Source: Methanohalophilus euhalobius
Lineage (GTDB): Archaea; Halobacteriota; Methanosarcinia; Methanosarcinales; Methanosarcinaceae
NCBI RefSeq assembly: GCF_900215215.1
Contig: NZ_OBDR01000002.1
Span: 1-64,000 of the forward strand
DNA: 64,000 bases
Direction: 5' to 3'
Part shown: piece after piece, positions 498-18,135 of the stretch
How the letters are laid out: every line of letters begins with the position of its first letter
Numbering within the stretch: position 1 is the stretch's first letter
Translations under genes and position numbers: made by a program
The notes under the pieces: model-generated
Databases searched by the model: none
Told to the model about the DNA's origin: nothing
The model's input: the letters and a program-made list of their open reading frames with translations, nothing else

Positions 498-518
498 AAT
501 GCTAATCATGTGTCATAT

Positions 519-1247
519 ATGCGATGTAAAGTAAGCTTAAAAAAATTATCTTCTAATCCTATCCATTATGATTACCAGTATGGGTTGGCTTCTATATTAT
601 ATAAGCGTTTGACAACTGCAAATGTAGAACTTGCAAATGAAATTCATAGATATAAAGGTTTCAAGTTCTATACATTTTCCAATTTGATTGCAGAGGATAA
701 AATTCCTAATAACAAGGGTTTGAATTTTAGTAAAGCTCATTTTTTCATATCATCTCCTGACAATAAATTTATCAAAAGTTTTGTTGAGGGATTATTAATG
801 CAACCTGAGTTCTTTCTGGGAAAAAATGAACTGAAAGCGAATTTTACAATTGAAAATATAGAGTTGCTCGAAGAACCTAACTTTTCAGATAAATGTATTT
901 TCAGGACTCTTTCTCCTATCTATGTAAAAACCCAGAGAAAAAAACAGGATAAACTTGTTATGGTGGACCTCTATCCCAAGGAACCTAAATTCTATGATAA
1001 TTTATATAGAAATTTAGTAAACCGCTATGAGGAATACTATAAACAATCGTTGGATCATTACCATTTTGATGTTTTGGACGTCTACAATGTTAAACCCAAA
1101 CGCATATCGATTGGTAATACCCAAAGGCGTTGCAGTATCATGACTTTTGAAGTAGAGGCAAATCCCGAACTTATTGCTTTTGCATACAATGCAGGGTTTG
1201 GAGAAAAGAATGCAATGGGATTTGGATGTGTAGATATAGTGGAGTAA
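519..1247 (+). CDS. cas6: CRISPR pre-crRNA endoribonuclease Cas6
   Basis: This 242-residue protein matches the Cas6 family in length and layout: two ferredoxin-like halves and a C-terminal glycine-rich loop, GFGEKNAMGFG, at about residues 226-236. His43 in ELANEIHRYKG is a candidate catalytic residue. Cas6 cuts the repeat RNA of the adjoining array, leaving an 8-nt 5' handle, here expected to be AUUGAAAU. I start at ATG 519 because MRCKV is a typical Cas6 N-terminus; a GTG at 510 is possible. It is the first gene of the adaptation-side operon, one base before the cas4 frame opens. Confidence 0.9.
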   Translation: MRCKVSLKKLSSNPIHYDYQYGLASILYKRLTTANVELANEIHRYKGFKFYTFSNLIAEDKIPNNKGLNFSKAHFFISSPDNKFIKSFVEGLLMQPEFFLGKNELKANFTIENIELLEEPNFSDKCIFRTLSPIYVKTQRKKQDKLVMVDLYPKEPKFYDNLYRNLVNRYEEYYKQSLDHYHFDVLDVYNVKPKRISIGNTQRRCSIMTFEVEANPELIAFAYNAGFGEKNAMGFGCVDIVE

Positions 1248-1257
1248 GGTGTACCAT

Positions 1258-1860
1258 ATGGGGCAGATGAAAAACACTGATTCCGGAAAGAAGAGAGAGT
1301 CAGAACAACCAGATGTGGACCCAAATTCGTTTGCAGCCGTTTGGTCGGATTCAGTGCGTATAACTGGTGTAAAAGTTGCTTACTATCATATCTGCCATAC
1401 AAAACTCTGGCTTTTTTCTCATAATATTAATCTTGAGCAGGAAAATGCAAATGTACAAATTGGCAAGCAACTTCATGAAGATCGTTATAAGAAGAAAAGA
1501 AGGGATGTTACAATAGGTAATACCATGAGTATAGATTTCTTGGAAACAAAGGGTACAATCAGGATTCATGAGGTCAAAAAGACAAAGAAAATGGAAAAAT
1601 CCCATGAAGCACAATTGCTTTTCTATATCCACTATTTTAAGAAACAAGGTATTGAAGCAACGGGTGTTATCAATTATCCGCTACTGAATAAGACCCAGAA
1701 TATTACGCTGACTCCTGAAAATGAATCAACTCTTATTCAGGAAATAGAGGACATAAAGATAATAGTGCTTGGGAAGATGCCAAACCCGAAAAGAAAAAAG
1801 ATCTGTCCCAAATGTGCCTATTATGAATTTTGTTTTAGTGGTAGTGAGTATGAAGAATGA
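1258..1860 (+). CDS. cas4: CRISPR-associated exonuclease Cas4 (RecB-like, Fe-S)
   Basis: Cas4 trims and orients prespacers for Cas1-Cas2. The 200-residue protein shows the family's four cysteines: Cys46 in YYHICHTKLWLF and Cys183, Cys186 and Cys192 in ICPKCAYYEFC, which bind a 4Fe-4S cluster. The RecB-type nuclease residues are also present: His73, Asp93, Glu105-x-Lys107 and Gln119 followed by Tyr123. A GTG at 1249 would add three residues. The stop is TGA at 1858-1860, and the same frame then runs open straight into cas1, so the two proteins are separated by a single TGA and a short linker. Confidence 0.93.
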   Translation: MGQMKNTDSGKKRESEQPDVDPNSFAAVWSDSVRITGVKVAYYHICHTKLWLFSHNINLEQENANVQIGKQLHEDRYKKKRRDVTIGNTMSIDFLETKGTIRIHEVKKTKKMEKSHEAQLLFYIHYFKKQGIEATGVINYPLLNKTQNITLTPENESTLIQEIEDIKIIVLGKMPNPKRKKICPKCAYYEFCFSGSEYEE

Positions 1861-1872
1861 AGGGGGAATTTT

Positions 1873-2871
1873 ATTAAAAGCGAATATTATATCCTGCAGG
1901 ATGGTTATCTGAAAAGAAAAGAAAACACTGTCTATTTCCAGAATAAGGATGAAAGAAGACTTCTGCCCATAAACAAGATTTATTCCATCTATGCATACGG
2001 TAAATTATCTTTTTCTTCAGGGGTGGTTTCATATCTTGCTAAAAATGGAATCCCGATACATTTCTTTAATTACTACGGTTTTTATGAGGGTAGTATGTAT
2101 CCAAGGGAGACTTTGATAAGCGGTGACCTTGTGATCAATCAGTCTGCCCATTATCTGGATGATTCAAAGCGGAAGTATCTTGCAGGTAAGTTTATTGAAG
2201 GTGCATGTGGCAATATTCTTAAAAATTTGCGCTATTATTCAAGAAATGATGAATATCATCAGCAACTCAATGACTTTATAGGACGTATTGAGGATGAAAT
2301 TGTTAAACTGCCTGAGACTGATTCTATATCTTCAATGATGAATGTTGAAGGCAGATTGCGTGGCCTGTATTATCAGGCATTGGATGAGATTCTTCCTGAG
2401 GAATATATGATTGTTAAAAGAACCCGCAGGCCTCCGGAAAATAAGATGAACACCTTAATAAGCTTTGGTAATTCCCTGATGTACACTACTGTTCTTTCTG
2501 AAATCTATAATACGCAGTTGAACCCGACAATTTCCTACCTTCATGAACCGTTTGAAAGGCGTTTTTCCCTTTCTCTTGATGTAAGTGAAATATTCAAACC
2601 AATTATTATCGACAGGATTATTATGAAACTAGTCAATAAAAATATGCTTGATGACAATTGCTTCAGAGGCGAGATCGGGGATATGCTTCTTAGTGAGAAA
2701 GGAAAGAAGATATTTTTGCAGGAGTATAACGATAAGTTGGGTACAACAATCAAGCATAAAGGTCTCAACCGTAAAGTTTCATATAAAAGGCTTATAAGGC
2801 TGGAACTTTATAAACTTTCAAAGCACATCCTCGGAGTTGAGGAGTATAAGCCACTAGTGATGTGGTGGTAA
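1873..2871 (+). CDS. cas1: CRISPR integrase Cas1, apparently starting at ATT
   Basis: Cas1 integrates new spacers. The frame holds Glu159 ([11 protein letters not shown]), His224 ([10 protein letters not shown]) and Asp236/Glu239 (SLSLDVSEI), the catalytic E-H-D set. The first ATG/GTG/TTG in frame is GTG 2023, but starting there would remove about 50 residues of conserved N-terminal domain. Upstream the frame reads [20 protein letters not shown], a classic Cas1 beginning, preceded by an ATT codon at 1873 with GGGGG six bases before it. An ATT start gives 332 residues, the normal Cas1 length. Readthrough of the cas4 TGA at 1858 would instead give a Cas4-Cas1 fusion. Cas1 identity is certain; the start is inferred. 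Confidence 0.9.
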
Positions 2872-2872
2872 T

Positions 2873-3136
2873 ATGTATGTGATTGCTGTATATGATGTGG
2901 GGATTGATCGTCTGAATAAGGTTCGTATATTCCTTAAACAGTACCTCAATTGGGTTCAAAACAGTGTCTTTGAAGGAGAGCTTACAAAAGCTGAATACAT
3001 AAAGGTAAGGTCAGAAGTAAAAGAACTCATTGATGAAGATGTTGATTGCGTCTTTTTTTATCATGTCAGGGATAAGAAATATCTTGGTTTTGATGAAATG
3101 GGTACCAGAAAAACAAATATTGATACGATAATCTGA
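2873..3136 (+). CDS. cas2: CRISPR endoribonuclease-fold protein Cas2
   Basis: An 87-residue Cas2 that bridges Cas1 dimers during spacer integration. It begins MYVIAVYDVG with the conserved Asp8 at the end of the first beta strand, followed by the ferredoxin-like segment NKVRIFLKQYLNWVQNSVFEG. It starts one base after the cas1 stop, so it is translationally linked to cas1. It is the last gene before the array leader. Confidence 0.95.
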   Translation: MYVIAVYDVGIDRLNKVRIFLKQYLNWVQNSVFEGELTKAEYIKVRSEVKELIDEDVDCVFFYHVRDKKYLGFDEMGTRKTNIDTII

Positions 3137-3349: not shown

Positions 3350-6300
3350 GTTATAATCAGACCTTAGAGGGATTGAAATGAACTCTTGAGAGTTCATTGA
3401 CGTCAGCCTTCTCAATGTTATAATCAGACCTTAGAGGGATTGAAATCACAGTTTGCAGAACTTGACGGCAGCGTATTGTCAAGTTATAATCAGACCTTAG
3501 AGGGATTGAAATTTCTCTCACCTCATATTCGAATACTTGTTACACTGATAGTTATAATCAGACCTTAGAGGGATTGAAATTAATACACATATCCATCTGC
3601 GCTGGATATATTATTGTGTTATAATCAGACCTTAGAGGGATTGAAATTGTTGGCAAACAATCATTTATATGAAACAGACCAGTTATAATCAGACCTTAGA
3701 GGGATTGAAATGTTACTTCCTGTGATGGTATAAATATTTCATCTACGGTTATAATCAGACCTTAGAGGGATTGAAATGTTCCGTGGGTGCGTATTAATGA
3801 TCCACAGCCTGCGTTATAATCAGACCTTAGAGGGATTGAAATACTCAAAAGGCGACACTTTCGAGATGCCTGTCAAGGGTTATAATCAGACCTTAGAGGG
3901 ATTGAAATTAAGCGCGCCGGGTTGCATTTCCTTTCCTCCTTTTTTTGTTATAATCAGACCTTAGAGGGATTGAAATGCATTTAATTCTTTTTGGGAAACT
4001 ATAAAAGATTTAGTTATAATCAGACCTTAGAGGGATTGAAATAGTCTTACCTTCTATCTTACCTTCTTTCATGTCATCGTTATAATCAGACCTTAGAGGG
4101 ATTGAAATACAGTATTTGAGGATTTAGAACATTACAAGAAACGTGTTATAATCAGACCTTAGAGGGATTGAAATGTTTATGTCGATATGATAATGCATTG
4201 ATACAATTAGTTATAATCAGACCTTAGAGGGATTGAAATATAAGTTCGGCTTCATTTTTATCTACCAAACCTTTCTTGTTATAATCAGACCTTAGAGGGA
4301 TTGAAATGTTATCGCTGTTTTTGTTACTGCATACGCCAGACAGTTATAATCAGACCTTAGAGGGATTGAAATCATGCTATTTCGTTCTGGAATGGAACGA
4401 CGTATTCCGTTATAATCAGACCTTAGAGGGATTGAAATTTTCCTAGTCTTATACTATCTAAAACATTGCAATCGTTATAATCAGACCTTAGAGGGATTGA
4501 AATTTAATCAGTTTGTACTTAGGTTGTTCGGGTTGCTTTGGTTATAATCAGACCTTAGAGGGATTGAAATACCAAGGCGTTTAGTATCGAAACCAGCAGG
4601 TATGTGTTATAATCAGACCTTAGAGGGATTGAAATGACGATGACACAACGATGGAAATAATACATGTTGGTTCACGTTATAATCAGACCTTAGAGGGATT
4701 GAAATGATGCACTATCGACAGTATTATAAGTAATCTGTGGTAGTTATAATCAGACCTTAGAGGGATTGAAATGAAATTCTGTTGTCTTCATCAAAAATAA
4801 TATTATAGTTATAATCAGACCTTAGAGGGATTGAAATTATTAAATATGTATAAGCATATAAATGAACTGAAAAAGTTATAATCAGACCTTAGAGGGATTG
4901 AAATGACAGATTGGATTTAGTACAACTGCTGAAATGGAAGGTTATAATCAGACCTTAGAGGGATTGAAATTCAAATAAGCATACCTTATATGGAACAATA
5001 CTGATAGTTATAATCAGACCTTAGAGGGATTGAAATGTAGTATGCTCACATTTCCGCATTGATATAGCACATGTTATAATCAGACCTTAGAGGGATTGAA
5101 ATATGACGTATCATTATCAGGTGTAACAAACTCAACACGTTATAATCAGACCTTAGAGGGATTGAAATACATTAATGTACATACATGTACAATGAACAAT
5201 GGCTATGTTATAATCAGACCTTAGAGGGATTGAAATGATATTGGTGGTAAAGAAGTTAGAGGTACGTTTAAGTTATAATCAGACCTTAGAGGGATTGAAA
5301 TTCGATTAAGCACATATCAAAGGTACTTATGCAATTCTGTTATAATCAGACCTTAGAGGGATTGAAATCCTCATCAATGGCTACTCCAGACATACTCCAG
5401 TAGGGTTATAATCAGACCTTAGAGGGATTGAAATTCAATTAAGCACATATCAAAGGTACTTATGCAATTGTTATAATCAGACCTTAGAGGGATTGAAATT
5501 ACATTACCCCAGAGATTTTCGATACCACGATAGACGTTATAATCAGACCTTAGAGGGATTGAAATATGTTTGGCACTGAACACTCTAAAACAACGTTTGT
5601 GTTATAATCAGACCTTAGAGGGATTGAAATACAGGGGAGGGAAAAATAGAAGACTACACGGAACATGTTATAATCAGACCTTAGAGGGATTGAAATGCAA
5701 CAGGTGAAGTTACTTATGGAAGCAATCCTAGGTTATAATCAGACCTTAGAGGGATTGAAATACTGTGTGGTAGAGTATTTCCCCAAAAAGCGCAATGGTT
5801 ATAATCAGACCTTAGAGGGATTGAAATAAAACAGAGCTGCATACCACGATGAGCCAGGGAAAGTTATAATCAGACCTTAGAGGGATTGAAATGAAAACCA
5901 CAGAGCAAGCCCCTGTGGATCAACAGGGTTATAATCAGACCTTAGAGGGATTGAAATAAGCCAAACGGTGAACCGTCATCATTCATAATAGTCGTTATAA
6001 TCAGACCTTAGAGGGATTGAAATCCGGCGAGGATGTCGATGAAAAAAAGTATGATGATGGTTATAATCAGACCTTAGAGGGATTGAAATATAATAACGGA
6101 TAAAATACAGAATAAAGTACAGAATGTTATAATCAGACCTTAGAGGGATTGAAATATCGTCCACAATTCCATTAGGGGCAACCACTCCAGAGTTATAATC
6201 AGACCTTAGAGGGATTGAAATGGACTTTCAATACTGGGCATTTCTATTTGTGGAGCAGTTATAATCAGACCTTAGAGGGATTGAAATGAAGATGATGTCG

Positions 6301-9300
6301 GTGGAGGTGTCTTCTAATGCCAGGTTATAATCAGACCTTAGAGGGATTGAAATGATATATGATGCATTGAGCCTGTAATCATAGGAATAGTTATAATCAG
6401 ACCTTAGAGGGATTGAAATATAATAGGGGCCAGTAATCTTTTTAAGGTGATTATAGTTATAATCAGACCTTAGAGGGATTGAAATACATCAGAAAGGATC
6501 GATATGCTTTGTCGTGCAAAATCGTTATAATCAGACCTTAGAGGGATTGAAATTAATAAGGATGTATGAAACATGCAACAAAAAATAAGTTATAATCAGA
6601 CCTTAGAGGGATTGAAATTCTGCTCATATTTCTTGTTGTTTTCCGTCTCGAGGTGGTTATAATCAGACCTTAGAGGGATTGAAATTCTCTAATCTTTTCT
6701 TCAAGTACTGCTTCAAGATTAGTTATAATCAGACCTTAGAGGGATTGAAATGGGAATCAAAGAAGGGCAAAAACTACCGTGATGCTGTGTTATAATCAGA
6801 CCTTAGAGGGATTGAAATCCATAGATTACGATATCTGCAGGCGATGAAAGGAATGTTATAATCAGACCTTAGAGGGATTGAAATGTAGTTATTCAACAAT
6901 GGGTTATGCAGGGCGCTCTGTTATAATCAGACCTTAGAGGGATTGAAATTTCAATTTGAAATTTGAGTGTGAAGAACCTTATGCATAGTTATAATCAGAC
7001 CTTAGAGGGATTGAAATTTATGCCTCACTCCTGATATACGAACGATGCATTGAGTTATAATCAGACCTTAGAGGGATTGAAATATTGATTGGGCAATTGA
7101 ACTTGCTGACAACACACAAGTTATAATCAGACCTTAGAGGGATTGAAATCGAGAATATACCCAATCAGACTCATGCCCGAAAAAAGTTATAATCAGACCT
7201 TAGAGGGATTGAAATAACCTTTTTATTTTTATTTATTACTGGTGTACCTGATATTGTTATAATCAGACCTTAGAGGGATTGAAATATAGGTTAACGTATT
7301 TTATCCTAATTGTACTATCGTGTTATAATCAGACCTTAGAGGGATTGAAATCTTGCTATATCTGTAGCACCATTATTGAAAATTCTGTTATAATCAGACC
7401 TTAGAGGGATTGAAATAACTTTATGCGTGGAAATGAGGGTATTGAGGAAATAGTTATAATCAGACCTTAGAGGGATTGAAATGTTTGTTTTTTACAATTT
7501 TAAGTCCACCCCGATTACGTTATAATCAGACCTTAGAGGGATTGAAATGTCATCAAAATCAGTTGCAGTAAGTACACCGCTTGAGTTATAATCAGACCTT
7601 AGAGGGATTGAAATTTTTATCACCTTATTGTAGTCACCAATACTAAATAAGTTATAATCAGACCTTAGAGGGATTGAAATTCATCATCTTCAAAATGATA
7701 TGTGCATAACGTATCAAGTTATAATCAGACCTTAGAGGGATTGAAATCATAAACAGAAACAATAAAAAGGATTGAACAAACATGGTTATAATCAGACCTT
7801 AGAGGGATTGAAATATTTGAGACAATACGATAGTACAATTAGGATAAAATGTTATAATCAGACCTTAGAGGGATTGAAATATGTACTTGAATGTACATAG
7901 ATGTAACTATTTGTGCCGTTATAATCAGACCTTAGAGGGATTGAAATGGCAGTACATCAATACAGGAATTTGAGTTTGACGGGTTATAATCAGACCTTAG
8001 AGGGATTGAAATCGATGCTTATGTGAAATCTTACGCTACAAGTCAGCCAAGTTATAATCAGACCTTAGAGGGATTGAAATGGAGATAGAAGAAAAGGAGG
8101 AGACAAAATGAGTATTGGTTATAATCAGACCTTAGAGGGATTGAAATATACCTAGCAGTGCAAAAATACCATACAACGCATACTGTTATAATCAGACCTT
8201 AGAGGGATTGAAATATTTTCAAAAAACTGGAGAAATTACAGCAGTCATAGTTATAATCAGACCTTAGAGGGATTGAAATACTGAGCATACGTTTAATACA
8301 ACATTGAATTTTGAGATGTTATAATCAGACCTTAGAGGGATTGAAATTATTTTTAAGGGATGTAGCACTAAATGACTTAAATCGTTATAATCAGACCTTA
8401 GAGGGATTGAAATATAGATACAAGTGCTGATTCAGTTATATCTATCATCATGTTATAATCAGACCTTAGAGGGATTGAAATTAGGATTGCAGTATTTTGA
8501 ATGCTTCTTGGTCTATTGTTATAATCAGACCTTAGAGGGATTGAAATAACTACATTAACAACTGAGGAAGTCGAAGATATTGGTTATAATCAGACCTTAG
8601 AGGGATTGAAATTAGTAAGTATCTAAAATCATATCATGGATAGACCGGTTATAATCAGACCTTAGAGGGATTGAAATCTGCGTCAGAGGGGCGATCTGTG
8701 AACGCTGTTTGTTTGTTATAATCAGACCTTAGAGGGATTGAAATTGAGTCTAAAAGACTCATGATACACATGCACAGCACATGCACGTTATAATCAGACC
8801 TTAGAGGGATTGAAATTAAAATGATTAATAAAACAGATTAATCTAACTTAACTGTTATAATCAGACCTTAGAGGGATTGAAATGACTTCTACCACACTCA
8901 TTGGAGCATTGTAACCAAAGTTATAATCAGACCTTAGAGGGATTGAAATTTGCCCTCCCGTTAGTAGCAGGTCTCGCAGCCGTTGGGTTATAATCAGACC
9001 TTAGAGGGATTGAAATATGATTATTCATTTGCTCTAATTCGGTAGGCGTGGATGTTATAATCAGACCTTAGAGGGATTGAAATTACTCTTTTATTCTTTA
9101 AAGGTTTATTTAATTGTGAGTTATAATCAGACCTTAGAGGGATTGAAATCATAACATTGATTATTCATAGACGGATATAGTGCCAGTTATAATCAGACCT
9201 TAGAGGGATTGAAATTTTTAAGTCTCTAATTAGTAATAGGTTGTCTAAGTTTAAAAGGCTGTTATAATCAGACCTTAGAGGGATTGAAATTCAGCAACAA

Positions 9301-11116
9301 ACACATTTGTAACTGAAAATGATGTGTTATAATCAGACCTTAGAGGGATTGAAATATTTCAAACTTCAAAGTGCAACGGGAAAACAACCCGTGACTGGAG
9401 ACGTTGGTTATAATCAGACCTTAGAGGGATTGAAATACATTCTGGATCGTGAATGTGTCTCCGCCGATATTTGGTTATAATCAGACCTTAGAGGGATTGA
9501 AATTATGTCTGTATTCCTTGTAGATGATCGAGATTCAAGTTATAATCAGACCTTAGAGGGATTGAAATATAACATGAACTATAGAAGTATAGTTCAAGGT
9601 TGGAGTTATAATCAGACCTTAGAGGGATTGAAATTCTCCTCTATCAATTCCATACTTTTCCATAATTTTTTGTTATAATCAGACCTTAGAGGGATTGAAA
9701 TATCTTGGCATGCTTGATTTCATGAGGGTCATATTTCGTTATAATCAGACCTTAGAGGGATTGAAATACTTATAAAACCGTGCAAGTACACGATTTATAT
9801 ACTGTTATAATCAGACCTTAGAGGGATTGAAATTCTGCATAGGAGCCTTGCGCGCCCATTCTTGATTTTGTTATAATCAGACCTTAGAGGGATTGAAATT
9901 TGATGCCATCTTGTCCTGTACCCGTTCCTTTGTCTTCGTTATAATCAGACCTTAGAGGGATTGAAATTTCAGTGTTGCAGCCGAACTTGTTACGGTACCC
10001 AGGTTATAATCAGACCTTAGAGGGATTGAAATCTCTTTGGAAATGCTTTTGGTCTGTTCTCTACAGCAGGTTATAATCAGACCTTAGAGGGATTGAAATG
10101 ATGATGTGATTGAAAATACATGGAATGAAAATGAGTATGATGTTATAATCAGACCTTAGAGGGATTGAAATACACAATATAAAATATGGAATCAGTAGAC
10201 ATCATGTTATAATCAGACCTTAGAGGGATTGAAATTGTTACAACAAAAGGTAATGGTAACACGAGTAACCAAAAGTTATAATCAGACCTTAGAGGGATTG
10301 AAATAAACGAGCGGGTGAACATGAAGAACGTAATCATCTTGACGTTATAATCAGACCTTAGAGGGATTGAAATAAACAGCCATAGATAATAGGAACATTC
10401 TTTCGGTCCCTGTTATAATCAGACCTTAGAGGGATTGAAATTTCATGTACTGATAACGAACTATTTATGACTGGATGTTATAATCAGACCTTAGAGGGAT
10501 TGAAATATCTGCTTGTTGTTGTACGGATCTTTGTGTATCGATCCGTGTTATAATCAGACCTTAGAGGGATTGAAATAAATGCGTAAACGGATCAAAATAT
10601 ATATCACTCGGTGACGATTGCGTTATAATCAGACCTTAGAGGGATTGAAATGCGCTTCTTTGGCGGTGAATTCATCATCATACTTTTGTTATAATCAGAC
10701 CTTAGAGGGATTGAAATTTCGTTCCTATGTTTGTATCTGCTGAATCTGCACCTGTTATAATCAGACCTTAGAGGGATTGAAATTTTCTTATATGTTTTTT
10801 ATATTCTTTTATACTTTCATTGTTATAATCAGACCTTAGAGGGATTGAAATTCAATAATTTGAATTTGTTGTTTTTGTGGTGGCTCAGTTATAATCAGAC
10901 CTTAGAGGGATTGAAATGCAATTATCATGTTTGTATGTTTCGTCTTGAACGGTGTTATAATCAGACCTTAGAGGGATTGAAATTTATATGTATAAAAACA
11001 TCTATAATAGAGTATATAGTTATAATCAGACCTTAGAGGGATTGAAATGATTGAGTGTAATTTCAGTATTTCCGGCAACCTGACTGGTTATAATCAGACC
11101 TTAGAGGGATTGAAAT
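3350..11116 (+). CRISPR. CRISPR array: 117 repeats of 30 bp, 116 spacers
   Basis: The repeat starts GTTATAATCAGACC and ends GAGGGATTGAAAT; I saw no variant copy. I counted 117 repeats by hand, the first at 3350-3379 and the last at 11087-11116. Spacers are mostly 35-38 bases, ranging from 34 to 51; the outliers, at 42, 45 and 51 bases, cluster in the distal quarter. The 3' end ATTGAAAT fixes transcription on the + strand, from the leader next to cas2. The final repeat is intact rather than degenerate. Spacers 30 and 32 are near-copies, and spacers 60 and 68 overlap on opposite strands (see findings). The array separates the adaptation genes from the effector genes. Confidence 0.99.
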
Positions 11117-11273: not shown

Positions 11274-12650
11274 ATGGACGGGTTTGTGGGAGATCCCATC
11301 ATAACTTCCGGCTTACTTGCGATTAAATTGAACACAGGTTTCAGTATTAGCGAATGCCCTGAAGATAAATTGAAGCAGGCAAGTGAACAACTTGTAGAAT
11401 TATATCTAACTCCTGCTTGGTCAAAGGAGTTACAATCTATTTTTCCCAATAGTACTTACATTCAAAGTGCAAAAAATTATGATAAGAAAGGCAAATCGAT
11501 AGAATTCTTGTATGAGCTTATAGAGGGCTTAAATTCTGAAAACAATAATGATGAGTATTGCGTATTTTGCGGCAGTCCTGCACATCAAAGAAATGATGGC
11601 AAGCCATTTGTAAAAACGCAGGTTCCACTAATTGGATCTTCTGATTTTACTAACTTTTTCCCCTCTTTCAAAAATGGCATGGACTTATGTGCAAAATGTG
11701 CTCTTGCTATTCAATTTTCTCCACTTTTGTACTATAAATCAGGAGGCAAACCTTGCTGTATAAGTTGTAATAATCTTCTTGTTTTAGAAAAATTTGGACA
11801 AGAATGTATTGAATACATCACGCAAAAACATGCTGCGGGATCTTTTAATTCAAAAGAAACTTCAGGAATACTCGATGAAGGTTTCAAAAATCCACAGAAT
11901 GCATTATTTAACCTTGCTTATAAATTCATAAATTATGAAAGAGAAGAAGAAGCGATTGATAAAGAAGAAATCGTCCTTTACTTGATGGATAACTATAATC
12001 AAAACCCTGCAGGGGTTTCCATTTACAAACTACCTAATAATGTATTCAGTTTTGTTGCATCAGTTATGCATTCACCCGAATTAAAAGATGTATGGTACTC
12101 TCTTTTATCAAAGCACTATAGGGGTAAAAAAGACAAAAAAAGCGGCTTACCAATATGGAAAACCAACTATAATCAAATTCATGATTATCTTTTGAAAAAC
12201 AGAAGTATTTTAAGATTTTTCAGAGACGATGTCAACAAAAAAACCACTGTTCCGTGGATATTAGTTGAAAATTATATGCAGAGGGTGAAGAATGTGAATC
12301 AGAACCGGATTAATGCAATAAAAGATTATGCTGATAGGATTGCGCAATGTATAACTGAATCTAAGAAAACAAAGCGCATCAATGATTTAATATCTGCAAA
12401 AGACTTTCCAACTTTTAAAAATCAACTACGTATGATTGGAAAAGATTGGCAAACCCTTGGTAAACAAGAGCCTTTGATCACATTTGATGATTATGTCTAT
12501 TCTATCATGCCAGATGATTATTCCAACTGGAGAGATGTTCAAAATCTAATAACTATAAGGCTATATGAAGAATTGCATCCAATCCTTGCAAATACAGATG
12601 AAGAAATGACCGATATAGATGAAGAAAGAGCCGAAGGTGAACAAATATGA
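11274..12650 (+). CDS. cas8: Type I-B Cascade large subunit Cas8 (Cst1, CXXC-CXXC type)
   Basis: Cas8 is the large Cascade subunit that recognises the PAM and recruits Cas3. This 458-residue protein carries Cys96-x2-Cys99 (YCVFCGSPAH), Cys139-x2-Cys142 (LCAKCALAI) and a further CCISC at 161-165. This is the paired CXXC signature of the Cst1 family of Tneap-type I-B systems. Position agrees: it is followed at once by Cst2-like Cas7, Cas5t and Cas3. The stop overlaps the cas7 start (ATGA). Most of the protein outside the zinc-finger region is not conserved enough to annotate by eye. Confidence 0.85.
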   Translation: MDGFVGDPIITSGLLAIKLNTGFSISECPEDKLKQASEQLVELYLTPAWSKELQSIFPNSTYIQSAKNYDKKGKSIEFLYELIEGLNSENNNDEYCVFCGSPAHQRNDGKPFVKTQVPLIGSSDFTNFFPSFKNGMDLCAKCALAIQFSPLLYYKSGGKPCCISCNNLLVLEKFGQECIEYITQKHAAGSFNSKETSGILDEGFKNPQNALFNLAYKFINYEREEEAIDKEEIVLYLMDNYNQNPAGVSIYKLPNNVFSFVASVMHSPELKDVWYSLLSKHYRGKKDKKSGLPIWKTNYNQIHDYLLKNRSILRFFRDDVNKKTTVPWILVENYMQRVKNVNQNRINAIKDYADRIAQCITESKKTKRINDLISAKDFPTFKNQLRMIGKDWQTLGKQEPLITFDDYVYSIMPDDYSNWRDVQNLITIRLYEELHPILANTDEEMTDIDEERAEGEQI

Positions 12651-13672
12651 AAACAGTAATTGGCACATATCTGATAGATGCTCCTTTTTCAGCATTGAAC
12701 AATAAAGGAATAGACTCACGTGGGGGTAACGAAAATGAGGTCTCTACTAAATCTATCTATTCTCCAGAAGGTGTAAGACCATATGTTTCTGGCCAGGCTT
12801 TGAGATATTGGTGGAGAAATGTTCTAGAAGAAAAGTATGGATGGAACTGCTCACCTGTAGAAGTAGTTGGAAAGAACCAGGCAGTCACAAAAGGCAACCC
12901 ACTTGAATATGATGATGACGATATGTTTGGTTATATGAGTGCCAGGAAAGAGGAAGTTCCAGGAAAAAAGAAACTAGAAAATGTGACAGTAACACGTGTA
13001 TCCCCACTAAAATGCTCTCCTTTAATCGGCTATCCCATCAGGCCTACTTCTGATTTTGGAGTACTCTCAAGGAAAACGGAATCAGATCCAATCCTTTTTG
13101 CACACCAGTTCTATAGTAATATACTGAAAGGAATTTTTTCGATTGATCTGGATTCGGTTGGAAAATATACCATGATAAATAAATCCGGGAGTAAAAATCT
13201 ATCTCCAGCTTTGGCTGAAGAATATGACTCCAAGGGATTAAAATCAGGGGAAAATGTCTATGAAGCCCCCTTAGAAATCAAGAAAAAGAGAGTGACTGAT
13301 ACATTAAAAGCAATCAATTACTTGAATGGTGGGGCTATGCAAGCATTGCATCATACTGATGTAACTCCTAAACTTATAATCTTGGCTGCATTAAACGGTG
13401 GAAACAATATTTTCATGAATATAATGCCACACAAAAATTATGAAAACGGCTTGGTAAACATCGATGCTCTTTATGAGGTACTAGATGACTACAAAGATGA
13501 TTTGCTAACAATGGTCTATATTGGAATTTTATCAGGTTTTGAAACTGATAAAGATAAGGAAATATTCCATTTCAAACCTCCTGAAGGCGTACAGGTTGAA
13601 ATAACTACACCTGTCAAAGCAGTTGAAATGTTTACTTCCGAATTAGAAGATAATGTAATAAAAGGCGAATGA
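12647..13672 (+). CDS. cas7: Type I-B Cascade backbone Cas7 (Cst2/DevR)
   Basis: Cas7 forms the helical backbone that covers the crRNA. The 341-residue sequence has the DevR/Cst2 pattern: an N-terminal IGTYLIDAPFSALNNKG strand, then VRPYVSGQALRYWWRN at about residues 43-57 and a central FGVLSRK loop. It also has the LKAINYLNGGAMQALHHTDVTPK helix and a late VEITTPVKAVEMF. It overlaps cas8 and cas5 by four bases on each side, so the three genes are translationally coupled. Confidence 0.9.
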   Translation: MKTVIGTYLIDAPFSALNNKGIDSRGGNENEVSTKSIYSPEGVRPYVSGQALRYWWRNVLEEKYGWNCSPVEVVGKNQAVTKGNPLEYDDDDMFGYMSARKEEVPGKKKLENVTVTRVSPLKCSPLIGYPIRPTSDFGVLSRKTESDPILFAHQFYSNILKGIFSIDLDSVGKYTMINKSGSKNLSPALAEEYDSKGLKSGENVYEAPLEIKKKRVTDTLKAINYLNGGAMQALHHTDVTPKLIILAALNGGNNIFMNIMPHKNYENGLVNIDALYEVLDDYKDDLLTMVYIGILSGFETDKDKEIFHFKPPEGVQVEITTPVKAVEMFTSELEDNVIKGE

Positions 13673-14328
13673 TCATGAAAGCCCTCAGGGTCGAATTAAA
13701 GGCAATGACTGCATCTTTTCGCTATCCGATGTTTGCAGTATCCTACCAGCCAACATACAAAGTGCCTCCTCTCTCAACCATCTACGGCCTTTTATCTGCT
13801 GCAAAAGGAGAAAAGGTGCATGTATGGGACCTTGCCATAGGCTACGATTTTTCCCATGAAGGTGAAGGAGTGGATTTGGAACGTATTCTGGAATATGGTG
13901 GTGAAAAAAAGACAAAACCCGTTTCATATCAGGGAAGTAACATTGTGCAAAGACAGTTTTTGTACAACTGCACATTGAACCTTTATATTTCAGACCTTGA
14001 TTTTAAAAAGTATTTTGAAAAGCCCTATTATACATTATTGCTAGGTAGACAAACAGACCTTGCAATGGTAACTCGAATTGAAGAAATCAATCTTGAAAAA
14101 AAGAATAATGTATCTGTCAAAAACACAATGATACCATTTGACGGCAAAGTTCCAGGACAGATTGTTTCTTTACCATCTGATTTCACAGATGAACCACAAA
14201 GAAAACCCATTGAAGTGCGTCCCTATTGTATTGTTGAATCCGAACAACAGATAGACATTGGGTATTTTGATAGTGAATTAAATAAAGGTGTATGCCTACA
14301 TGAATTCGACAATAAAGGCAAAGAGTAA
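13669..14328 (+). CDS. cas5: Type I-B Cascade subunit Cas5 (Cas5t)
   Basis: Cas5 caps the 5' handle of the crRNA in Cascade. This 219-residue protein shows the RAMP-type start MKALRVELKAMTASFRYPM and the PTYKVPPLSTIYGLLSAAKGE helix typical of Cas5t, with a later YTLLLGRQTDLAMV strand. The first ATG overlaps the cas7 stop; a second ATG at 13675 is preceded by AAGG and gives the cleaner N-terminus. Its end overlaps the cas3 start by about 29 bases. Confidence 0.9.
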   Translation: MIMKALRVELKAMTASFRYPMFAVSYQPTYKVPPLSTIYGLLSAAKGEKVHVWDLAIGYDFSHEGEGVDLERILEYGGEKKTKPVSYQGSNIVQRQFLYNCTLNLYISDLDFKKYFEKPYYTLLLGRQTDLAMVTRIEEINLEKKNNVSVKNTMIPFDGKVPGQIVSLPSDFTDEPQRKPIEVRPYCIVESEQQIDIGYFDSELNKGVCLHEFDNKGKE

Positions 14329-16510
14329 TGGAGAAACACTTGAAGAACATACTTCCAAATGTCTTTCTGTTTTTTCTAATTTAAAAGAAATATACAGTGA
14401 ATTAGATCAATTCACTAAGTATCCTTATTTTTATACTGATATATTCAATGCACTTTTTTTTCATGATTTTGGAAAAGCTGCAAATGGATTTCAAGAAGCA
14501 CTTGAATCAAAAAAAAGCAGATGGAAGTACAGGCATGAGATTCTATCTGTAAATTTTGTGGATTGCCTAAACAATCATGATTTAGATTTCACAAAAGCTA
14601 TGGTTTTGACCCATCACAAGAATATTGATGAACTTTGGGACTATTTTGAAGATGAATATTCTATTGGCAACAATTTTGAATACAAGATGGAAGAAATCAG
14701 AAACAATTTGTCTAGCTTAAACCAACTAATTGCAAAGTACCCCCAATTTTAGACTGACTACTTTGGTTGTAAGAACAAAAACCCAGAAAATCTTACCCTT
14801 GATCCAATCACTGAAATTCCAAAGGATAAAAATGAATGGCAACGCATTTTTCTCAAAATAACAAATAAGGACAATTTTCCTCCTTATCTGGGACTCTTTG
14901 GGAAAGGATTTGTAAATTCATGCGACCATCTTGCTTCAAGTGGAATTGACCATGTGCTTAAACCAATTTCTGATATGTATTCTGTTTATAATTTCGAAAA
15001 ACTTACAGATGTTCAAAATAAATGTTTGAGTACACGAGGCAACTCCATCGTTATATCCCCAACAGGTTCAGGAAAAACAGAAGCTTCCCTCTTTTGGAGC
15101 TCTGCTAATTTAGACAAAAATTCCGGAAATCGCATATTTTACACCTTGCCATATACTGCAAGTATAAATGCAATGTATAATCGACTCTTATATGACTTCT
15201 CTCCATATTACTCTACAAATGGATATGTTTCCTTGTTGCATGGGAAAGCAACTTATTTTCTGTATAAGCAATATGATCAGGAACAATACAAAGAAGTAAA
15301 AAATATTACAAAGAAAATCTATAGTCCATATAAGATAATGACCCCATTTCAGTCCATAAAACACTTCTTCTCCCTCAAAGGCTATGAGATGGGTATTCTT
15401 GAAATGTACCGTGGCCTGTTCATATTTGATGAAATCCATGCATACGATACCAGAACTGCCGGCCTGATTTACTCAATGTGTTCTCATTTAGTTAATGAAA
15501 TGGACGCTAAGGTAATGGTAATGTCAGCAACCCTTCCAGATTTTTTAAAAGATTTATTTCAGGATATGCTGGATGTTGATGAAGCAATAAAGATGAATGA
15601 AGGTGAATCCAACAAATATCTTCGTCATCGATGCAATATACTTGATGGAAATATATTTGACAACATGAGTTTAATCGCTGAACGAATTCAAGCCAATGAG
15701 AAAGTATTGGTTGTTTGTAATACTGTCAAGCAAGCTCAAAATGTGTATAATCATCTTCAAGGTTTTACAAAAAAGTCTGCTCTTCTTCATGGTAAATTTG
15801 TGTTGCGTGACAGAGAATTAATAGAAAAAAATCTACAAAATCTCGATTTGCTGGTAGGGACCCAGGTAATTGAAGTATCTCTAGATATGGATTATGATGT
15901 TTGTTTTACTGAACCAGCTCCAATAGATGCTCTTATACAAAGATTTGGCAGGGTTAATAGAAAAAAGAATAGTGAAGGTTATCCACTAAAAGGTATATGT
16001 GATGTATACATCTTTTCTGAAGGTTCTGAAAGTGACCATTACATATATGACCAAAATTTAGTGAAAAAAACATTGGATTCATTGGCTTCAGTAGATTTAA
16101 TGCATGAAACAATGCTCCATAACATAGTCAATGATGTTTATGGCAATGGTTTCGGGAAAAATCAAAAATTGTTCGACGAAACAAAAGAAAGGTTTAAAGA
16201 AATAATCGATAATATCGCTCCTTTTAAAGGTTCTCATTTCAAGGAGTCTGATTTTTATAATCTATTTAATTCTATAGAGGCCGTTCCATCTAATTTCAAA
16301 TCAGAATACCAAAAATGCATTAATGAAGGAAGAATTTTTGATTCAATGCAATATACCCTTCAATTAACTACCGGACAATATTACAGGTTACTAGGTGAGG
16401 ATAGAGTTGATTATGATGTTGATTGCAGGCAATTATTTATTGACGCCAAATATTTGCGTGTAATGGGTTTGTTGATCGACGAACCATATTTTGAAAATAA
16501 TATTTTGTGA
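14300..16510 (+). CDS. cas3: Cas3 HD nuclease-helicase with in-frame amber codon at residue 151
   Basis: Cas3 nicks and degrades DNA marked by Cascade. Read through TAG 14750-14752, the frame gives 736 residues. HD motifs are His17, His55-Asp56 (FFHDFGKA), Arg78-His79-Glu80, His105-His106 and, after the amber, Asp209 (NSCDHLASSG). Helicase motifs follow: PTGSGKT at about 254-260, FDEIHAYD near 377, SATLP near 408, then QVIEVSLDMDYD and QRFGRVNR. The amber therefore lies inside the HD domain, the frame is identical on both sides, and the 67 codons after it are open and family-like. No ribosome site or good start exists for a separate helicase gene; the GTG at 14954 is mid-domain. In a pyrrolysine-decoding methanogen residue 151 could be pyrrolysine; otherwise this is a nonsense mutant. 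A GTG at 14288 is an alternative start. Confidence 0.85.
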
Positions 16511-16616
16511 TTGATTAATTGCGTTTATCCTGCATATTTTGCAATAAATGGAATTATTGTGATTTTTGAAGTTATATAGACATATTATCGTGTGCCCTGA
16601 ATCTGTAAGAAATAAA

Positions 16617-16885
16617 GGCTCTGTAGAAATCCTCATTTGGAAAATTACTGAAATAGAAGTTGCCCTGTCTATATATTTGAACTTGACCTCTTTGACCTGA
16701 TTTCTGTATTTTTACGACGGTATACCACTAAATTACAGATTTAATGAGAGTTCCAGATTTTCAATCTGGAACAAAACACATTCATCACCAATGTGTTTTT
16801 GCCTATCCAGAATCACATTGGGGACCTTTCATCTAAAAATGATAATTTATTAATGGAAGGTAGAGGGAAGGATTTCTACAGAGCC
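16617..16885. mobile_element. MITE derived from the IS remnant at 23668-24035
   Basis: A 269-base element bounded by perfect 16-base terminal inverted repeats: GGCTCTGTAGAAATCC (16617-16632) and GGATTTCTACAGAGCC (16870-16885). It has no coding capacity. Its reverse complement matches both ends of the decayed IS at 23668-24035, and the piece missing is most of the transposase reading frame, so it is an internal deletion derivative. It carries a 10-bp perfect hairpin, GTTCCAGATT/AATCTGGAAC, at 16750-16772. I could not identify a target duplication with confidence. Confidence 0.8.
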
Positions 16886-16984
16886 CTTTTTCTCATAACT
16901 GATGTCAAGCCTTCCATATAACCACCTTCAATAGCAACATTTGAAAATAAGCTGTACTATACAGGGATACAGTAGGGATAATAA

Positions 16985-18135
16985 AAGAGGATTCAGATTA
17001 ACGTTCCTCTTCCAGAACTTCTATAAAAATTGTTCTTATTATTGTTCCATTTGCCTGTTTCCCAGGCAATTATTCTGAAATATCTGCTTATTTATAGATA
17101 GCTTCCGCTCTCAGGCCATCACCCCTTTTCTTTTTAACGTCCTCATTTGATGCAAATTGAAACAAAACGCCGTAACCATCATTTTTAGATTTACTCTTTT
17201 AACCGTCGTAACCATCACCTTTCCCGCTTTGAATACGCCTTTTGTCACCGCATACACCCTTTCACAGGGCATCCTCTGTACACTAATCCTGTCATTACGC
17301 ATAATCTGTTTGATATTTAGTGGCTTTCCTCTTACCGCTCTTTGCATCGTTGCCGCAAATCCCTTTGCCTCCACTCCAAAATATCCCTTATCCCTATACA
17401 CCACTTCTCCTTTTTTTGACAGATCCACCTGTGAATCATGTACTGATGCCACAGTCGTTTTAAACCTTCGAATCAACTCATTCTCCTTATCAATAATCGT
17501 ATGCAGTTTGTACCCAAAATATGATTTGCCACCTTTTTTTGACCAATTTCCATCCCTGCTTCTTCTTGTTTTTGCCTCATCACCTCTCATTTTCTCCTGA
17601 TTGGCATGTCCAGGTTCTGCAACAATAAAGGTTGCATCCTGAATCATTCCCTTTTTAATTTCCAATCCTCTACAATCAATCTGTCTTTGTAGTTCTCCCC
17701 ATATTTGTTCTTCCAGTCCCAATTTTGCAATCCTCTCCCTGAATGACCATACAGTTGTGTCATCAGGTATTCGCTTTGGAAACCCCAGGAATTTTCTGAA
17801 TGAAATACGATCAATACATTGTCGTTCAAGTTCTGGATCTGAAAGACCATGCCATTGTTGTAATACAAGCATTTTGAACATCATTACAACATCATTTTCA
17901 GGTCGACCACCTTTGTCTGTCCTGTTGATATACATTGATTCCAGTATGGGACGAAATGGTTTCCAGTCGATTAGCTTGTCTATTTCAGATAGTTTGTCAC
18001 CAGCAGCTATCAAACGGTCATATTCCTGTTTCAGGGTGAAATTAATGAAAGTACTCATATAACTAAATTTATCTTGATTAGATATAAATATTGTTGTTTA
18101 GTTTGGGTGAGAAGAGGAGTTAATCAGAAATCTCT
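16985..18135 (-). mobile_element. IS5-type insertion sequence, about 1.15 kb
   Basis: The element encloses an intact transposase gene. Its ends are imperfect inverted repeats: AGAGGATTCAGATTAACG from about 16986 on the left, and GAGTTAATCAGAAATCTCT ending at about 18135 on the right. When one is reversed, roughly 20 of 28 positions agree over the outer ends. Length and gene size are those of the IS5 superfamily. It sits 100 bases from the MITE, which has unrelated ends, so two different mobile families inserted side by side downstream of cas3. Confidence 0.75.
17111..18058 (-). CDS. IS5-family DDE transposase
   Basis: An intact 315-residue transposase. The N-terminal helix-rich region (FRPILESMYINRTDKGGRPENDVVMMFKMLVLQQWHGLSD) is the DUF772-type domain of IS5 elements. 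Candidate catalytic residues are Asp141 (MIQDATFI), Asp223 (YRDKGYFG) and Glu266 (CERVYAV). The basic KTRRSRDGNWSKKGGKSYFGYKLH segment between them is typical. The frame is undamaged, so the element may be active. Confidence 0.9.
   Translation of the reverse strand: MSTFINFTLKQEYDRLIAAGDKLSEIDKLIDWKPFRPILESMYINRTDKGGRPENDVVMMFKMLVLQQWHGLSDPELERQCIDRISFRKFLGFPKRIPDDTTVWSFRERIAKLGLEEQIWGELQRQIDCRGLEIKKGMIQDATFIVAEPGHANQEKMRGDEAKTRRSRDGNWSKKGGKSYFGYKLHTIIDKENELIRRFKTTVASVHDSQVDLSKKGEVVYRDKGYFGVEAKGFAATMQRAVRGKPLNIKQIMRNDRISVQRMPCERVYAVTKGVFKAGKVMVTTVKRVNLKMMVTAFCFNLHQMRTLKRKGVMA

Follow-up and report, generated by a model that had tools for sequence, protein, structure and literature searches.

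In MtmB, MtbB and MttB an in-frame UAG codon is read as pyrrolysine, and the codon is both conserved and catalytic. The same reading is proposed here for the cas3 gene of a CRISPR-Cas locus in Methanohalophilus euhalobius, in which the codon is not conserved and does not specify one of the HD catalytic residues. In the tRNA-His guanylyltransferase Thg1 (Heinemann 2009), a dispensable and non-catalytic pyrrolysine is reported to have been acquired by neutral evolution; the same drift explanation is offered below for cas3, although the Thg1 protein was reportedly studied by experiment, whereas our case is built from sequence. Recent work reportedly describes archaea, Methanococcoides and others, that read all of their TAG codons as pyrrolysine.

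Within the same genus, an amber codon in the citrate synthase gene of Methanohalophilus mahii has been proposed to encode pyrrolysine (PMC3017947), likewise a single in-frame UAG in a central gene, but one specifying a metabolic enzyme rather than a CRISPR protein. Cas1 of 'Ca. Methanomethylophilus alvus' is predicted to contain pyrrolysine (PMC4153887), although Cas1 is an adaptation protein whereas the gene considered here encodes the interference nuclease. An in-frame amber codon also occurs in cas3 (AR505_1089) of the Methanomassiliicoccales archaeon ISO4-H5, another pyrrolysine-decoding methanogen, where the gene is listed among those using pyrrolysine (PMC5011839). The first-pass annotation of the present DNA was aware of no described pyrrolysine Cas3, for which this predicted amber-containing cas3 is a precedent. 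In a search of full-text literature with sparse coverage of subscription journals and preprints, a link between pyrrolysine and Cas3 was found, among the papers examined, in that report alone, and the idea of an amber-encoded, pyrrolysine-containing Cas3 is already known. ISO4-H5 belongs to a different archaeal order, and in the text of its report the cas3 amber codon is listed with neither a position nor an analysis, whereas for the present codon the position, the residues of orthologues and the genome-wide background were tested.

The window, meaning the whole 64,000-nt stretch of DNA that was analyzed, contains a complete type I-B locus in the order cas6-cas4-cas1-cas2, array, cas8b1-cas7-cas5-cas3, with the following features:

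510..1247, + strand: cas6 (TIGR01877, 169 bits)
1249..1860, + strand: cas4 (TIGR00372, 78.5 bits)
1873..2871, + strand: cas1, type I-B (TIGR03641, 475.5 bits); start ATT at 1873 after GGGGG, with no ATG, GTG or TTG at the expected position
2873..3136, + strand: cas2 (TIGR01573, 41.6 bits)
3350..11116, + strand: CRISPR array of 117 identical 30-nt repeats, GTTATAATCAGACCTTAGAGGGATTGAAAT, and 116 spacers
11274..12650, + strand: cas8b1 (Cst1; TIGR01908)
12647..13672, + strand: cas7 (Cst2/DevR; TIGR02585)
13669..14328, + strand: cas5b (TIGR01895), overlapping the start of cas3
14300..16510, + strand: cas3 with one in-frame TAG; HD nuclease at residues ~1-214, helicase at ~240-600
14750..14752, + strand: in-frame TAG, codon 151, proposed pyrrolysine; serine in most orthologues

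Directly after cas3, the last gene of the locus, lie a MITE-like element of 281 bp with 23-nt inverted ends (window 16611-16891) and then an IS5-family transposase gene (window 17111-18058).

From ATG 14300 to TGA 16508-16510, the cas3 frame is interrupted solely by the TAG at 14750-14752, and no further stops or frameshifts were found in the gene. In profile searches, TIGR01596 (Cas3'' HD) matched residues 14-214 (61.3 bits), spanning the TAG, and TIGR01587 (Cas3' helicase) matched residues 250-596 beyond it (266.3 bits), so that homology extends on both sides of the UAG and the two halves constitute one protein. These results agree with the first-pass annotation, which had described a single TAG in an otherwise open frame and placed it within the HD nuclease domain. 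The HD catalytic set H17, H55, D56, H79, H105, H106 and D209 is intact in this copy and invariant in 44 sequences, and the helicase motifs PTGSGKT, DEIH, SAT and QRFGR are all present. With the catalytic histidines and aspartates, the SF2 helicase motifs, and cas8b, cas7, cas5, cas6 and an array adjoining, the gene has the features of a type I-B Cas3.

The alignment column corresponding to codon 151 is occupied by serine (AGC, AGT or TCN) in nine same-family orthologues and in the majority of the broader set, and elsewhere by alanine, methionine, phenylalanine, tyrosine, glycine, other residues or a gap. TAG was found at this column in none of more than 50 relatives, in all of which a sense codon or a gap occurs instead, and no internal stop was present in the cas3 cores listed from 112 family genomes. 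The UAG is therefore not conserved among homologues, whereas conservation would be expected of a functionally required pyrrolysine. A model of the protein was computed with AlphaFold from 44 sequences, using lysine in place of pyrrolysine at residue 151 (pLDDT 88.6, pTM 0.89; an earlier model from 10 sequences, with a pLDDT of 45.5, was set aside), and its best PDB matches were the Cas3 structures 4qqx (T. fusca) and 4q2d. Residue 151 falls within a short helix (147-155) just before a low-confidence loop. It is not among the HD catalytic residues, and the modelled position would place it in a variable short helix that is far from all of these residues in sequence.

A pyrrolysine reading calls for pylT, pylS and pylBCD in the same genome, and all are present as one complete pylTSBCD operon on contig C7 of the 1.94-Mb assembly (G000), encoding tRNA-Pyl(CUA), PylS, PylB, PylC and PylD. 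The PylB, PylC and PylD profile scores are 521, 442 and 352 bits, respectively; TIGR03909 detects PylC, and PF21360 used as a PylC probe gave no match. Two mtmB genes occur in the genome, with one TAG in each. The stops of 974 ORFs in 1.16 Mb comprise 468 TAA, 484 TGA and 22 TAG, and when a coding-usage filter is applied, 463 TAA, 475 TGA and 17 TAG of 955 ORFs. TAG thus accounts for ~2% of gene stops, as against an 18% share of stop trinucleotides over the initial 0.45 Mb, and the proposal that this genome avoids TAG stops is correct. The combination of the pyl gene set, rare UAG stops and in-frame UAG codons in other genes is the one expected for a pyrrolysine-encoded protein, and the organism very probably reads UAG as pyrrolysine. 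The stop codon of pylB is itself TAG in both of the Methanohalophilus genomes (L037:6748-6750 on G000:C7 in the present one).

The decisive evidence comes from the genome at large. About 350 filtered genes were compared, in both directions, with 1.2 Mb of a closed genome of the same genus (G033), the interruption scan covering 1.16 Mb of the 1.94-Mb genome. Comparison without the coding filter was overwhelmed by shadow and antisense ORFs, and only the filtered version was used; excluded from it were a gene interrupted by TAG as well as TGA, two alignments with frameshifts, and TAAs upstream of a likely true start. Single stops breaking otherwise matching genes were TAG in every instance, five in M. 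euhalobius and four in G033, and neither genome had a TAA or TGA of this kind, an outcome with a chance probability of ~5e-5 if nonsense mutation to the three stops is assumed to be equal. Seven of the nine represent single-base steps (CAG to TAG five times, GAG to TAG, and TAT to TAG). The five genes of M. euhalobius, with the codon of the relative, encode aconitase (CAG), a PPK2-type polyphosphate:AMP phosphotransferase (CAG), RuBisCO (GAA), a FilR1-like regulator (TAT) and an HTH/TOBE protein (GAG), three of them located as follows:

L096:14987-17770 (G000:C11), - strand: aconitase AcnA (928 aa), TAG in V*PSLAGPKRP, Gln in the relative
L060:7417-8838 (G000:C18), + strand: RuBisCO large chain, TAG in DKDAI*LVNED, Glu in the relative
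L068:6729-8237 (G000:C18), - strand: polyphosphate:AMP phosphotransferase, TAG in WLHID*DTQF

The aconitase and RuBisCO profile models continue through the TAG with high scores, and no other aconitase of AcnA length was found in the genome. Elsewhere on contig C18 (about 386397-386682), a CxxC-containing gene has both a TAG and a TGA in frame relative to an intact counterpart, and is probably a true pseudogene.

Because the interrupting stops are all TAG and never TAA or TGA, UAG tolerance is general in the genus, with cas3 as one more case; these gene comparisons show UAG to be accepted as a sense codon independently of cas3. The explanation we favor, and consider likely, is that the gene encodes an unexceptional type I-B Cas3 in which codon 151 has drifted neutrally to UAG and is decoded, perhaps only in part, as pyrrolysine to give a working protein. 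The substitution itself would be tolerated and probably neutral.

An unlikely alternative is that interference has been disabled by a recent nonsense mutation, with most translation ending at codon 151 and leaving an HD fragment that lacks D209 and the helicase while the array persists. The presence of a sense codon or gap in every homologue examined is compatible with such an event, whereas random nonsense mutation would not yield gene-breaking stops that are exclusively TAG across the genome, and some read-through of a UAG would be expected in any case. Nor does the gene resemble a pseudogene with further lesions or relaxed constraint. It has no frameshift and has kept its conserved residues: of 123 columns that do not vary among 18 relatives, it retains 120 (18 of 19 before the TAG and 102 of 104 after it), much as in sister copies. 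Tajima relative-rate tests gave chi2 values from 0.0 to 4.4, only one of 21 exceeding 3.84, indicating little acceleration, although unique changes are slightly more numerous in this copy (~65) than in sister copies (~53). Relaxed selection would stay invisible if the event were recent, and since the nearest relatives in the collections searched, from ANME and Methanoperedens, are only ~60% identical, a recent nonsense mutation would look identical to what is observed; a counterpart of this cas3 from another strain, carrying a sense codon, was not found in these collections. The first-pass annotation had held that sense codons in full-length relatives together with further decay in this copy would speak against pyrrolysine, and of these the sense codons were found and the decay was not.

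The state of the array also bears on this alternative. Its 117 repeats are without a single mismatch and its 116 spacers are all distinct, which argues for recent activity, and two spacers, at 5302 and 5435, nearly duplicate the sequence of a single protospacer, with a one-base difference between them. The perfect repeats and this near-identical pair suggest that the array has been in recent use. Two spacer sequences compared with viral contigs gave no exact match, and a search for self-targeting spacers, which could indicate that interference is dead, revealed no close match in 1.16 Mb of the organism's own genome, with one at 6 mismatches. The ATT start of cas1, where relatives have ATG, could be taken as a second lesion in the locus. 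The second cas1 of the genome (L056 about 8064-8066, - strand, contig C25) has ATA at the conserved start, after a G-rich site, and a second Methanohalophilus species (L246) shares this start context exactly. Because this gene also lacks a canonical start, and the feature is conserved in a second species, a near-cognate, non-canonical start is a plausible interpretation of the cas1 sequence, rather than a lesion. Contig C25 (10.8 kb) carries a second, different CRISPR-Cas locus, with cas3, a cas5-like gene, cas1, cas2, cas4 and another repeat, which could compensate for a disarmed type I-B system. The array on that contig is broken by a truncated IS5-like ORF at L056 2504-3091.

It is very improbable that the UAG is instead a selected gate that ties interference to pyrrolysine supply, such that immunity rises with methylamine metabolism. 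The codon does lie upstream of D209 and the helicase, and output would accordingly track the supply of pyrrolysine. However, TAG is conserved in no relative examined, and the same tolerance of TAG in unrelated housekeeping genes needs no regulatory cause, so that the suggestion of a conserved or selected codon finds no footing. An RNA element after the TAG was likewise not found, the downstream RNA structure showing nothing unusual or PYLIS-like (z = +0.63).

A single-base error in sequencing or assembly is likewise very improbable: only one genome copy of this cas3 is at hand, but the other TAGs of the genome have the correct context, and the relative independently displays the same pattern. 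A division of the gene into an HD gene (cas3'') and a helicase gene (cas3'), such as those represented by type I-A chains among the PDB matches, was rejected, because homology is unbroken across the TAG and the first listed-ORF start downstream of it in frame, GTG 14954 (codon 219, opening a 518-aa ORF), lies 3' of D209 (codon at 14924), the final HD motif, so that a re-initiated protein would lack a complete HD site and neither half would possess one; as the first-pass annotation had maintained, no separate helicase gene is evident.

Returning to a neutrally drifted codon that is read as pyrrolysine, the insertion of this amino acid in archaea is considered to depend on how Pyl-tRNA competes with release factor, with no required mRNA signal (PMC9499178). 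At codon 151, Pyl-tRNA(CUA) made by the organism's own pylTSBCD products would thus compete with the release factor. Read-through would give full-length HD-helicase Cas3 with pyrrolysine in the short, variable helix within its HD domain, and termination would give an inactive 150-residue HD fragment; the cas3 UAG would be one of several such codons scattered through the genus. The sequence itself establishes the reading frame, the integrity of the motifs, the pyl operon and the tolerance of TAG across the genome; we infer the incorporation of pyrrolysine into Cas3, its efficiency, the inactivity of the fragment and the activity of the pyrrolysine-containing protein. If the fragment is inactive, interference needs pyrrolysine, although nothing indicates selection for such a dependence. 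We consider it improbable that CRISPR interference is a function of pyrrolysine supply to the extent that too little of the amino acid leaves only the HD fragment and abolishes immunity, coupling methylamine metabolism to defense. Should a shortage of pyrrolysine indeed lower immunity, a rare amino acid would offer a practical handle on CRISPR activity.

Read-through of the pylB stop would add at least 39 codons that overlap pylC, and pyrrolysine might in this way feed back on its own synthesis. The UAG-containing genes of Methanohalophilus, including those for aconitase, RuBisCO, polyphosphate:AMP phosphotransferase and Cas3, form a clear set in which read-through could be measured. Standard pipelines are likely to annotate genes of this kind as pseudogenes or as truncated, and active CRISPR systems in pyrrolysine-decoding archaea may consequently be scored as dead.
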